NCBI GenBank assembly: GCA_015059045.1
Contig: SVBD01000013.1
Location: 1-45,479 of the forward strand
Origin: Erysipelotrichaceae bacterium
GTDB lineage: Bacteria > Bacillota_I > Bacilli_A > RFN20 > CAG-449
Direction of reading: 5' to 3'
Length of the DNA: 45,479 bases
The translations under genes and the position numbers were made by a program. Positions within the stretch are counted from its first letter, which is position 1. The number at the start of each line of letters is the position of its first letter. Under the pieces are notes generated by a model, which did not search any database, was not told the origin of the DNA, and was given only the letters and a program-made list of their open reading frames with translations. Below, in pieces: positions 1,921 through 45,478 of this stretch.

Positions 1921-4900
1921 ATGAAAAAAAGAATTAAAATTGCTTCGTTATTTATTATATTAACGTGTGGAATATTTGCAGGGAAATTAATTAGTAATAT
2001 ATCTTTAGATGCTATTAAAGAAAAGCCGGTTTTAGTTGATTCAAAATTGAATAATTCAAGAATTAAAGATAATATGGCATCAAAAGATTTAACCACCATT
2101 ATTAATGGGAAAACTTCATCTATAGATACGGAGAAGGATGGAATTGGTGATAACATAACTATCATTGATGATATTAGTGATTTTGCTTTAATGAATGGTA
2201 GTAGCGGACATTTTAAATTGAGCAAAAACATAAGTGTTCCTAACTCTATAACTTCATTAGGTATTGAGACATTTGATGGTGTGTTTAATGGTGGTGGATA
2301 TACAATTTCTAACTTAAACGGGCCATTTGTTAATAATTTAACAGGAACCATTTGTAATTTGATTATTGATAGCCCTAGAGAGTTTACTGCGGTATTAGAT
2401 GCATCAGCAACCGTTAAACATACAATTTATGATACATTATATGGATTTACAACAGATAATTCTTATACGCAAGTAGCACCTCAATATTTTGGCTTTGCTT
2501 GTGGTATAGCAACTGGAGGAACTATTGATAATGTAAAAGTAAATAACGCTAAGATTAATACAAATGGTTCAACAGAAGGCGAATTTGATACTTCAATTAA
2601 TACAACAGGATATATGGGTTTTATTGCTGGTCAAATAAATCAAATTACATATCTTACTAATTGTAGTGTAACTAATTCGACATTAGTTCATAGTTCTGCT
2701 TATGCGGTTGGTGGAATTGTTGGTCATTCAAACTTCTCATATGTTAAAGGATGTTTGGTTAATAATTTATCTGTTACTGGAAAAAATGGTCTTGCAATTA
2801 ATACAATGCCAAAAGCGTTTACCGGACTACTAGTGGGTGCTAATTATCGTGGTACTATAGATGAAAGTATTGTTACTAATATTACTCAAACATCTACTCC
2901 TTATTTATCTTTTTTAGGAGCGGCCTTATATATTAAAAATACTGGAACTACAAATATACGCAATATATATTATGACAATACTGTCGCAGATTTTTCAAAG
3001 GCAGGAATGGATGAAGGATATGAACAAATAATTCAAATAACAAATGATCCAATAAATTCTTCAAATGCTACAGTAGACAATTATGGCCATGTTTATGATA
3101 TAGATGCATCTTCTGTGGGTTATTATAGAACGTTAGTTATTAAAGATATACATCGTTATTCTTCAACATCATTATCCTCGATAATTTCAGAATATAACTC
3201 TAATCTAAAATTGGGCGGATATTCTTTAAAACGTAATCCTTCTACTTATAATATTGATAATTATGTTGCAGAAGACGAAAAAGTAATCGCTGTTAACTTT
3301 TCTATCAGTGATGATTTGACATATGGTGATTATTTTAAAGATAAAGTAACATTACAATTAGATACTAGTAAAACAAATTTTGAAACTGAAGTTTTCTTTC
3401 AATATAAATATGAAGGTAGTAATTATTTTTTAGATTTAACCGATGAATCTATAGTTACTAAATTAACAGGAGAATATCGAATCCTTTATACTAAAAATGG
3501 TTCTAGTTATGTATTAGAAGGAGCAAGTGGTACATTTAACGCTAAACCATTCGACCTTAAAGATGCAGTAATTAATGTAAGCTCACATAAATATAATGGA
3601 AAAGAGCAAGATGTTTTTATTGTTGTAAGAACTCCTAGCGGTCTTAGTATAACACCTTCGCTTTCAGGCACAACTTCAGCAACAGAAGTTGGAGTATATG
3701 ATGTAGTTATAACTGGAAATTCTAATGCAACAGGATCAGTAACTACGCAATGGGAAATTAAACCAGGAACAATGTCATTGTATGCTAATAACATAGAAAC
3801 AACATATGATGATAATTATCATAGTATTAAAGTAAGCGCGCCAGATAATACAATTTTGACTTATAGTACAGATGGAGTCGAATACACTTCAACTAATCCA
3901 TCATTTAAAGATGTTGGAACGTATACAGTTTATTATAAAGCGAGTAACCCTAACTATGAAGATGTGTCCGGATTTGCAACCATTACAATAAAACCGCGTG
4001 TGGTCAAATTGATTTGGGGAGAAACATCACTAGTATATAATGGAGAAGAGCAAGTACCATCTGTAACTCTTGGTAATATTCAAGGTGATGATGTAGTTAA
4101 TATTACCGCTATTAGCGGATACGCAATTGAAAAAGGCGATAGCTATACAGCGACTGTTTTAGGAATTGATAATCCTAACTATATTCTTCCAAGCGAAGTT
4201 TCAACCAACTTTAAAATTACCCCTATTATTCTTGAAGTTCCTTCTATTTCTTCAAAAGAATATACTGGAGAAATATTATATGCTGATGTAGATGAAAATG
4301 ACGGATATGTTATTGATGGCATCTATTATGGAACGACGGTAGGTCAATACAAATTCACTTTAAGTCCTAAATATAATTATGCTTGGCCAGGTGGTAGTAC
4401 ATATAAACTTTCTTACACATTTGAAATTACTAAAGGTACGAACGAATGGGTAATCGCTCCAAGTATTGAAGATTGGACATATGGTCAACAAGCTAGCGAG
4501 CTTATTTATCAAAGTAAATTTGGAACCTCAACTATTCGTTATTATGCCGAGGGAAGTGAGGAAGTATTAAGTGGTGTTCCTACTGAAGCTGGCAATTATA
4601 AAGTCGAAATAATTAACTATGATACTTATAATTATGATGGAGAACTTCATGAGATATTATCATTTACAATCCATAAAGCTAATTCAACTAGTGAAGCACC
4701 AACTCATTTAACAACACCGCTTGGTAGTACATTAAATGATATCGCTTTGCCTATTGATGAAAATGGAATTTGGTCATTTGTAGAAGATGGTAAAACCTTA
4801 TTAGATGAAGCAAAAGAATATACGTTCACTTTAATTTTTACCCCTAATGATCCTAAAAATTATAATATTATTGAAAAAGAAGTAACTATTAATGTGCCAA

Positions 4901-9093: not shown

Positions 9094-9131
9094 TATAATA
9101 ATTTCACTCATATATTTGCTTACCAAGCGAA
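9094..9131 (+). promoter_or_regulatory. Candidate promoter and operator of the XRE gene
   Basis: TATAAT lies at 9094-9099, with only a weak -35 (TTTTCT, 9071-9076). An imperfect palindrome, TTTGCTT-ACC-AAGCGAA (about 9115-9131), sits just after the predicted transcription start, where a repressor would bind. A hairpin ATAACC-AGGAA-GGTTAT (9144-9160) lies further down the leader. Confidence 0.4.
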
Positions 9132-9214
9132 TCGATGAAAAAGATAACCAGGAAGGTTATTAAACCAATTTTTAATTAAATAGTTAATTTGATCAATTAA
9201 AAGGAGGTAAGCAT

Positions 9215-9526
9215 ATGAGTAAAAAATTAATTGATTCGCAAATGATTGGTAAAACAATCAAATCCTTAAGAGAGGCTAATAACTTGACACAAGTTGCTTT
9301 AGCGGAAAAGATTGGCTACAGCGTTAGAAATCTACGCCGAATTGAAAAAGACGGAACGACTAAAATCGATGTGGTAAATACTTTTGCTTGTGCTTTCGAG
9401 GTATCGGCTCTAGACATCCTTGACGGGGATGTTTTCTTTTTGTCTAAAAATAAAAAAAACATTGTTGACCTTCGCCATACAACGCTTACTCTAATTTGTT
9501 ATTCATACACATGCACGCTAGGCTGA
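9215..9526 (+). CDS. Small XRE-family (Cro/CI-type) HTH regulator
   Basis: A 103-residue protein preceded by an excellent AAAGGAGGT. Residues about 10-66 form a Cro/CI HTH (IGKTIKSLREANNLTQVALAEKIGYSVRNLRRIEK, with LTQVALAEKIG as the turn region). Homologues of this size usually end soon after the ALDILDG segment (residues 65-72). The last 25 or so residues (from DLRHTT) look unlike the rest of the family and are encoded antisense to the 3' end of the structured RNA at 9452-9960. The gene may therefore have an extended tail after loss of its original stop, or a tail that evolved by overprinting. It probably regulates itself, the RNA or the ABC operon; which one is unknown. Confidence 0.75.
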   Translation: MSKKLIDSQMIGKTIKSLREANNLTQVALAEKIGYSVRNLRRIEKDGTTKIDVVNTFACAFEVSALDILDGDVFFLSKNKKNIVDLRHTTLTLICYSYTCTLG

Positions 9527-9960
9527 GCTATAAGTTGCGATCTTTTAGCTTCTAGAATGGACTTACGTCGGACCATGGAAGGAACTTGATTATCCTTCAA
9601 CGTTCAGAGAGCTTCAGCAAATAAAAATAACATTCCTTATATTTATTGGCTTTCTCCTACTTGTGCCTATCAAACTAGTTATAGGTGATTGCTCACCATC
9701 AAGCCACACACTTCCTTTGAGAACGTAGTTATTAGTTTCTCAGGCTAATAACTGATCGCGAGATGCATTGCTGCAGAGCTTCTTGTCGTGCCTAGTCGGA
9801 TAGCTATTTACATCGAAGAGCGCGGTGCGCCATTAACCAAAGCGGCATTTTAATTCCGGGAACCATATAGGTCTTGTCAATAATGCAGTATCCCACAATA
9901 TCTTCTTTCTTGGTTAAGCCTCAGCCATCATGCAAGATGTCTTCACCGAGTTACAATGTA
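9452..9960 (-). ncRNA. Large highly structured RNA, candidate ROOL-class
   Basis: This stretch of about 505 bases has higher GC than its surroundings and no plausible reading frame of its own. On the minus strand a -10 TATAAT (9971-9966) precedes a start near 9960. The 5' end ACATTGT (9959-9953) pairs with ACAATGT (9465-9459) at the 3' end, closing the whole molecule, and a U-tract follows. Internal hairpins read UGCA-GCAA-UGCA (about 9775-9764), GGUGA-GCAA-UCACC (about 9697-9684) and GAC-GUAA-GUC (about 9570-9561), all with GNRA loops in this orientation only. GUUAUUAG/CUAAUAAC (9752-9728), CUCGG/CUGAG near the 5' end, a long-range UUAACCAA/UUGGUUAA pair and GGCUU/AAGCC add further structure. 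Length and host type suit ROOL, but I cannot match a consensus; GOLLD-like or a new class remain possible. Confidence 0.7.
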
Positions 9961-9965
9961 TCTTT

Positions 9966-9971
9966 ATTATA
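9966..9971 (-). promoter_or_regulatory. -10 element of the structured RNA
   Basis: TATAAT on the minus strand lies about 6 bases before the first base of the closing stem. No good -35 is seen at 9989-9994, but the upstream DNA is very AT-rich. An inverted repeat AGGACA/TGTCCT (9994-10010) lies where a regulator could cover the -35. Confidence 0.5.
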
Positions 9972-10031
9972 GAATATATATTTTAAATGTGTGAGGACAT
10001 CGTTTGTCCTTATTTATAAATATTTTCTTTA

Positions 10032-10069
10032 AACCAACACTTTTTGTCTTTTTTGATGTGTTGGTTTTT
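10032..10069 (+). terminator. Intrinsic terminator in the putative leader of the ABC operon
   Basis: AACCAACAC (10032-10040) pairs with GTGTTGGTT (10058-10066), followed by more T. No gene lies just upstream on this strand apart from the XRE gene 500 bases away. It may stop read-through across the structured RNA, or act as an attenuator for the ABC transporter operon that starts at 10139. Confidence 0.75.
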
Positions 10070-45100: not shown

Positions 45101-45478
45101 GGGGATGTTCCGGTTTCGACGGGGCAGATTTGGTATAAGGCGCAGTCGGTTGGTCGCGTTAAAGACCACAAAAAAATATCTGGCAACAGAACATCTTATT
45201 CCTACGCAGCTGCTTAATTTAGCATAGCCACTACGAGTGTCCCTATGTTTGGGATGGTAGGTGCTGCTCTAAGTTTGGTCTCTTGATTTAGAAGCGGTAT
45301 AATACCTAGAGAATAAGACTTATCGATTCCTATAAGGTAAGTACGAAAATTTATAGGATAGTCAAAAGTTGATTCGTTAACTAATCTTACTTTTGATGAA
45401 AATTACTAGTTAACTAAACTGTAGGGGCTTATATGGGGTTTGTTTCGGACAGGAGTTCAATTCTCCTCATCTCCACCA
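45101..45478 (+). ncRNA. ssrA: tmRNA (transfer-messenger RNA)
   Basis: A one-piece tmRNA that rescues stalled ribosomes and tags the nascent protein. The 5' end GGGGATG pairs with CATCTCC before the terminal ACCA (45475-45478), forming the tRNA-like acceptor with an encoded CCA. The 5' D-like segment GGTTTCGACGGGG and the T-arm GGAGTTCAATTCTCC (about 45452-45466) are present. The tag frame runs 45182-45214 with stop TAA at 45215-45217 and encodes GNRTSYSYAAA, preceded by the Ala carried by the charged tmRNA. The tag start was placed by alignment with the Bacillus layout (TATAACTGGC before the resume codon, here TATCTGGC). Confidence 0.96.

Follow-up and report, generated by a model that had tools for sequence, protein, structure and literature searches.

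ROOL RNAs are among the largest RNA-only structures known, and to our knowledge they have no known function, regulator or signal. The window analyzed here, a stretch of 45,479 nucleotides from a 1.44 Mb Erysipelotrichaceae genome, carries the single ROOL of that genome among ordinary chromosomal genes. This locus raises the question of what controls such an RNA and to which condition it responds.

Identity and setting of the RNA

The initial annotation read positions 9452-9960 as a large structured non-coding RNA on the minus strand, with ROOL as the first choice and a new class as the alternative. A covariance-model search of the whole window (cmscan, Rfam 15) settled the choice in favor of ROOL (RF03087). 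The match at 9446-9974 (-) spans model positions 1-574 and scores 205.4 bits (E = 4.7e-45), about twice the gathering cut-off of 99.1 bits, and a new class is excluded by this full-length match. The only other Rfam family in the window is the tmRNA at 45101-45478. The limits annotated initially differ from those of the Rfam match but lie close to the probable transcript, which runs from about 9960 to about 9452 (-).

Several features that had been noticed in the letters were found again. GC content is 0.38-0.45 across the ROOL stretch and about 0.21-0.28 outside it. The two ends pair as the closing helix P1 (ACATTGT at 9959-9953 with ACAATGT at 9465-9459, minus strand), and a U8 tract occupies 9459-9452 (-) at the 3' end. 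Three hairpins on the minus strand carry GNRA tetraloops, GCAA twice and GTAA once (TGCA-GCAA-TGCA, GGTGA-GCAA-TCACC and GAC-GTAA-GTC), and the -10 hexamer of the ROOL promoter, TATAAT, precedes the 5' end at 9971-9966 (-). Dense pairing, which had also been claimed, was borne out by the covariance model and by covariation but not by stability. At least one double-sided compensatory change was found in 90 of the 118 consensus pairs in an alignment of 18 ROOLs from the same clade as the window, whereas the folding energy was not unusual (z = -0.20; 37 of 100 shuffles were as stable). Stability is therefore uninformative here, and the structure is assigned from homology and covariation.

ROOL forms an octameric RNA nanocage by cryo-EM (PMC12286853), the cage being recognized as a homo-octamer with conserved inter-chain contacts through the kissing loops B1, B4 and B6. 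The ROOL linker is poorly conserved and is disordered within the cage in the solved structure (PMC12286853). A variable AU-rich segment lies at this linker position in the ROOL alignment, at 9618-9650 (-) of the window. The window ROOL is a full-length member of a known family, with which it shares the full-length covariance match, P1, the GNRA hairpins, the variable linker and the compensatory changes, and it is not new as a family member.

It differs from the usual ROOL in being chromosomal, in lacking phage genes and a tRNA array in its vicinity, and in having a dedicated XRE gene and an operator. Reports usually place ROOL in phages and prophages, with tRNAs close by (PMC12286853). This setting, often close to tRNA islands, describes the family and does not define it, and most of the phage ROOLs fetched for comparison lie in or beside tRNA arrays. 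The window contains no tRNA genes, and the neighbors of its ROOL are DUF3737, ABC transporters and an aldo/keto reductase, followed by GdpP, L9 and DnaB. No phage family (PHROG) was matched among the flanking genes tested, except by the HTH gene, and a blastn search of phages and plasmids gave no match when the window ROOL was the query. The usual phage setting would suit a non-functional remnant of a decayed prophage, but the ordinary flanks speak against such an origin, as do a full-length RNA with compensatory changes in its relatives and an intact promoter, operator and terminator; a remnant is extremely improbable. ROOL is present in 3 of 8 genomes of the genus and in 6 of 18 genomes of the family, and scanning GTDB genomes and the order with DNA patterns yielded further ROOLs.

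A convergent XRE gene and an operator at the ROOL promoter

The stretch had been described as holding no credible protein, which does not apply at its 3' edge. A gene at 9215-9526 (+) converges on ROOL, and its open frame overlaps the ROOL 3' end by about 80 nt. The product belongs to HTH_3 (PF01381; 37.2 bits against a Pfam cut-off of 23, 3e-9), its conserved part ends near residue 71, and the assignment as an XRE regulator also draws on conservation of the gene beside ROOL. The initial annotation had overlooked this convergent XRE gene, the terminator within it and the operator of the ROOL promoter.

All six ROOL loci of the family have an XRE/HTH_3 gene of 65-103 aa that converges on ROOL at its 3' end. 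In total, 16 loci combine ROOL with a cognate XRE gene, adjacent or nearby (the window, L007, L008, L009, L010, L011, L056, L058, L062, L064, L066, L069, L154, L155, L157 and L164). The gene is usually convergent, and most lie no more than about 125 nt from the ROOL 3' end; the gap is about 300 nt in L155 and about 2 kb in L157, and the XRE of L164 stands upstream of ROOL in the same direction. When a profile of the XRE was run against 395 genomes of the class, the matches above 95 bits adjoined ROOL. The next matches (L096-L099, 77-93 bits) did not adjoin ROOL, and generic XREs reached at most 58 bits. Neither the XRE nor the operator was found with the ROOLs L162 and L169, which are near relatives, with L063 or with the phage ROOLs, and no relatives of the XRE or HTH protein were found among IMG/VR contigs. 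XRE-like genes near ROOL in loci of the Romboutsia type (L060, L067) are generic XREs at a larger distance and were excluded from the count. Unknown RNAs were considered beside the non-ROOL XREs L096-L099 and rejected, the gaps being ordinary open frames that run off the fetched ends. A HepT/MntA-like pair (type VII toxin-antitoxin) is located between the ROOL 3' end and the XRE in L008 (8841-9664), as if inserted. A SAM riboswitch is located near the ROOL 5' end of L062, on the opposite strand (4464-4591 (-)).

The ROOL-XRE pair could also be a small mobile or addiction-like cassette, that is, a selfish unit and not a host stress system. Phages and plasmids are known to carry ROOL, and the outer neighbors mostly differ between loci, both of which would fit a cassette; the exceptions are the syntenic genus L009-L011 and an upstream gene common to L155 and L161. 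However, the pair is accompanied by no toxin or recombinase, and the synteny of L009, L010 and L011 indicates stable inheritance in that genus, which makes a selfish cassette quite improbable. Matches of the XRE in PHROG and NCBIfam include repressors and antitoxins. A PezA/HipB-type antitoxin was rejected as an identity for the XRE, since the scores of 33-34 bits are far under the NCBIfam cut-offs of 290 and 71.65, and no toxin partner was recognized at the window locus.

XRE-linked ROOLs have an upstream palindrome, GGACA-N5-TGTCC, usually in the form AGGACA-N5-TGTCCT followed by CAC. The operator of the window (AGGACA-AACGA-TGTCCT) is located at 9994-10010, 22 nt upstream of the -10, with its centre near -42/-43. 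The -35-like hexamer CTCACA at 9990-9995 (-) agrees with the consensus at 4 of 6 positions with a spacer of 18, and overlaps the operator by 2 nt. Most ROOL promoters of the clade share the sequence TGTCCTCAC. The distance from the operator end to the -10 is 22-23 nt in nearly all loci (L058 fits 22 or 25), and the exact GGACA-N5-TGTCC occurs as a single copy in the window genome, at ROOL. Among ROOLs with upstream sequence, the operator is present in 15/15 with an XRE and in 4/41 without one (Fisher p 2e-10), a value that serves only as a guide, as the loci are related and not independent and p-values therefore overstate the evidence. An inverted repeat, AACCAACAC...GTGTTGGTT, lies upstream of the ROOL operator at 10032-10066 (-) and may be a terminator or a second site.

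The four operator-positive ROOLs without an XRE represent three distinct loci, L053 and L161 being the same. The contigs of L161 and L158 end 379 nt and 34 nt past ROOL, respectively, and the L053/L161 genome also holds L066, which has an XRE. The remaining case, L156 (2495-3042 (-), G463:C4), is a second ROOL-like copy with an operator and a -10 that scores below the Rfam cut-off. It matches in its 5' half (nhmmer model 12-302), and the same genome carries L155, which is full length and has an XRE; L156 may be a duplicate that is decaying or has diverged and is driven in trans. Among XREs without ROOL, the relatives L096-L099 have the palindrome at their own promoters, 153-186 nt upstream of the start, which ties the palindrome to this XRE subfamily by independent evidence. 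Most of these relatives also have a leader helix. A second operator copy in L069 (3833-3847), 163 nt upstream of the XRE start, suggests that the XRE is autoregulated in that lineage.

The XRE protein is predicted to bind GGACA-N5-TGTCC and thereby to control ROOL transcription. Lambda CI, also an XRE-type protein, acts at PRM from OR2, an operator centred near -42, and the -35 of PRM is poor. The operator centre at about -42/-43 and the poor -35 of the ROOL promoter resemble this arrangement, and activation by the XRE is therefore judged likelier than repression, at about 60:40, the resemblance being one of position only. The XRE could instead be a repressor that covers the -35 region and keeps ROOL silent, so that rescue stress would raise the XRE and lower ROOL, or another signal would remove the XRE. 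XRE proteins are often repressors, the database matches include them, and the operator does overlap the -35-like hexamer; but the fixed spacing of 22-23 nt with a poor -35 suits an activator at about -42, and the operator of the non-ROOL relatives is located upstream of the promoter and not over it. Such a repressor is considered somewhat unlikely.

A terminator inside the XRE frame and a leader helix

An intrinsic terminator hairpin lies within the XRE frame at 9412-9434 (+), at codons 66-74 approximately. It is formed by AGACATCCTT-GAC-GGGGATGTTT and is followed by the U-rich TCTTTTTGTC, and the first in-frame stop (9524-9526) comes about 90 nt past the hairpin. An in-frame terminator is present in 12/12 main-clade XREs, and the stop is at least 16 nt past the hairpin in 11 of them; the stop of L069 falls in the U tract. 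Among divergent members, the stop is in the hairpin in L010, L011, L164 and L097, L009 is without such a hairpin, and L098 is non-stop again. The non-stop design is thus not universal: in L009, L010, L011, L164 and L097 the stop codon comes within or ahead of the terminator. When the same criterion was applied to 149 ORFs with a minimum length of 120 codons, four matched, three of which were these XREs, leaving 1/146 among non-XRE frames. None of 15 generic XREs has an in-frame terminator. Across all ROOL neighborhoods scanned, the frames with internal terminators were HTH genes and a few spurious-looking open frames. The codons GAC ATC CTY are used by all 12 main-clade XREs (expected 0.004 per locus from window-gene codon usage). 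Past the glycine codon, the frame shifts among members (GGG GAT GTT, GGA TGT TTT, GGG GTG TCT) while the hairpin and the U tract persist, which indicates selection on the RNA signal and not on the C-terminal residues.

The terminator might only block convergent transcription into ROOL, with read-through giving enough mRNA and no link to trans-translation. It would be useful for this purpose where XRE frames run into the ROOL 3' end, as many do, and the divergent members with a stop codon in the hairpin agree with such a role. However, a stop before the hairpin would evolve easily and is nevertheless absent in 11 of the 12 main-clade members, and generic XREs have no such terminator. The L. salivarius gene described below, which is in tandem with ROOL, shares this design in a setting where nothing converges. 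A role in convergence alone is therefore unlikely.

A precedent for the non-stop design is brfA of Bacillus subtilis, which has a terminator within its coding region, yields non-stop mRNA and undergoes SsrA tagging, its protein being visible only when trans-translation fails (PMC6881298). The XRE gene shares this arrangement, and a non-stop mRNA is accordingly predicted for it. The genes brfA and arfA (the latter from E. coli) are short, as is the XRE gene, which is similar in size to brfA with its 71 codons; in brfA, too, the coding sequence contains the terminator and the stop codon follows it (PMC6881298). In contrast, BrfA and ArfA are ribosome-rescue factors, whereas the XRE product is a DNA-binding protein whose SsrA tagging is a prediction. 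The XRE product is not classed as a rescue factor, the function of ArfA and BrfA being the recruitment of release factor 2 to stalled ribosomes. The tmRNA and SmpB are both present.

Translation of the XRE may be limited by its leader as well. Downstream of the probable -10 of the XRE promoter (TATAAT, 9094-9099 (+)), the segment TGCTTACC at 9117-9124 (+) pairs with GGTAAGCA at 9206-9213 (+), which comprises the SD end and the spacer before the ATG and is sequestered with a mean pair probability of 0.84. In most XRE leaders, the SD end and the spacer are paired with a segment located 49-115 nt before the start, examples being AGCTACC/GGTAGCT in L062, AGTCCAC/GTGGACT in L008, AGTTCGT/ACGAACT in L069 and TAGCATAC/GTATGCTA in L099. 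Automatic alignment of the leaders was poor, and each segment was instead compared with its own and with swapped partners. Own pairing scored 17.8 against 12.4 for swapped pairing in 15 leaders (permutation p ~5e-5), a value that is conditional because L007, L009, L010 and L011, which have no clear helix, were left out; L157, in which the leader is cut, was also left out. Pair probabilities were 0.62-1.00 in 12 of 13 leaders. A clear helix is absent in L007, L009 and L011 and is weak by shuffling in L010, L064, L066 and L098.

The abundant lncRNA of Ligilactobacillus salivarius is also a ROOL, located on pMP118 (L123, 28264-28806 (-), 130 bits). A downstream HTH gene, LSL_1884, is reported beside this lncRNA in strain UCC118, and the four strains highest in HTH mRNA are also the highest in lncRNA (PMC5643018), which argues against a repressor. 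Deleting the RNA, whether or not the HTH gene is removed as well, has mild effects only, which counts against the control proposed below, and deletion lowers the megaplasmid copy number (PMC5643018), a result that would fit a selfish cassette. LSL_1884 has a 12-bp terminator hairpin with a U tract inside its frame, at codons 71-79, and its stop is at 91; the HTH gene is noted in the passages of PMC5643018 covered here with no mention of this terminator. Its protein is barely similar to the XRE (7.6 bits against the XRE profile). L. salivarius UCC118 resembles the window in having a ROOL beside a small HTH gene with an in-frame terminator, and differs in that the HTH gene is tandem and not convergent, the location is a megaplasmid, and the promoter region is different and lacks this operator. 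Among Ligilactobacillus plasmids, 33 records contain ROOL and 33 contain the LSL_1884-type HTH gene. LSL_1884-like HTH genes also lie in or beside dense tRNA arrays (L174 3543-6536 in R. albus pRUMAL01, L175, L179 and L180), and a hairpin with a weaker U tract is present inside the HTH frame of L175 and L176. No ROOL was found beside the LSL_1884-like genes of R. albus pRUMAL01 and the gut phage contigs, and the association with ROOL is thus not general for that HTH family.

Proposed control of ROOL by ribosome-rescue capacity

On the sequence evidence, we assign a probability of roughly 0.55 to the reading that ROOL is under the control of the XRE, which probably activates it, and that trans-translation keeps the XRE level low, making ROOL responsive to ribosome-rescue stress. 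Most XRE mRNA would end inside the frame, and ribosomes would stall at this non-stop 3' end. The tmRNA-SmpB system would then tag the XRE for degradation, as is established for BrfA, and the regulator would be held back twice, through the leader helix and through the non-stop nature of its mRNA. If trans-translation failed or reached saturation, the XRE would accumulate and ROOL transcription would change, most likely upward, and the RNA would go on to form the family's octameric cage.

Such control of ROOL suggests a connection with ribosome rescue or stress in translation. A more tentative proposal, which we hold to be possible though doubtful, is that ROOL is itself an output of ribosome-rescue stress, with cages that form chiefly under overload or loss of tmRNA and act on ribosomes or tRNAs. 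Phage, mRNA-cleaving toxins, antibiotics or stationary phase are examples of what could bring this about. Ribosomes or tRNAs have been suggested as possible contents of such cages (PMC12286853), and a rescue-linked signal fits this suggestion.

The XRE partner of ROOL appears to be new. No description of a link between ROOL and ribosome rescue was found in the literature searched, which lay outside most subscription journals, and priority is not certain. The dedicated regulator, the operator and the non-stop design together provide a concrete, testable signal for ROOL, namely ribosome-rescue capacity, and this can be tested in the culturable L. salivarius, in which deletion mutants already exist. 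If the reading is true, the XRE would be, as far as the literature searched shows, the first transcription factor proposed to be under ArfA/BrfA-type control, and ribosome rescue would provide a link between ROOL and the phage settings, rich in tRNAs, where it otherwise occurs.
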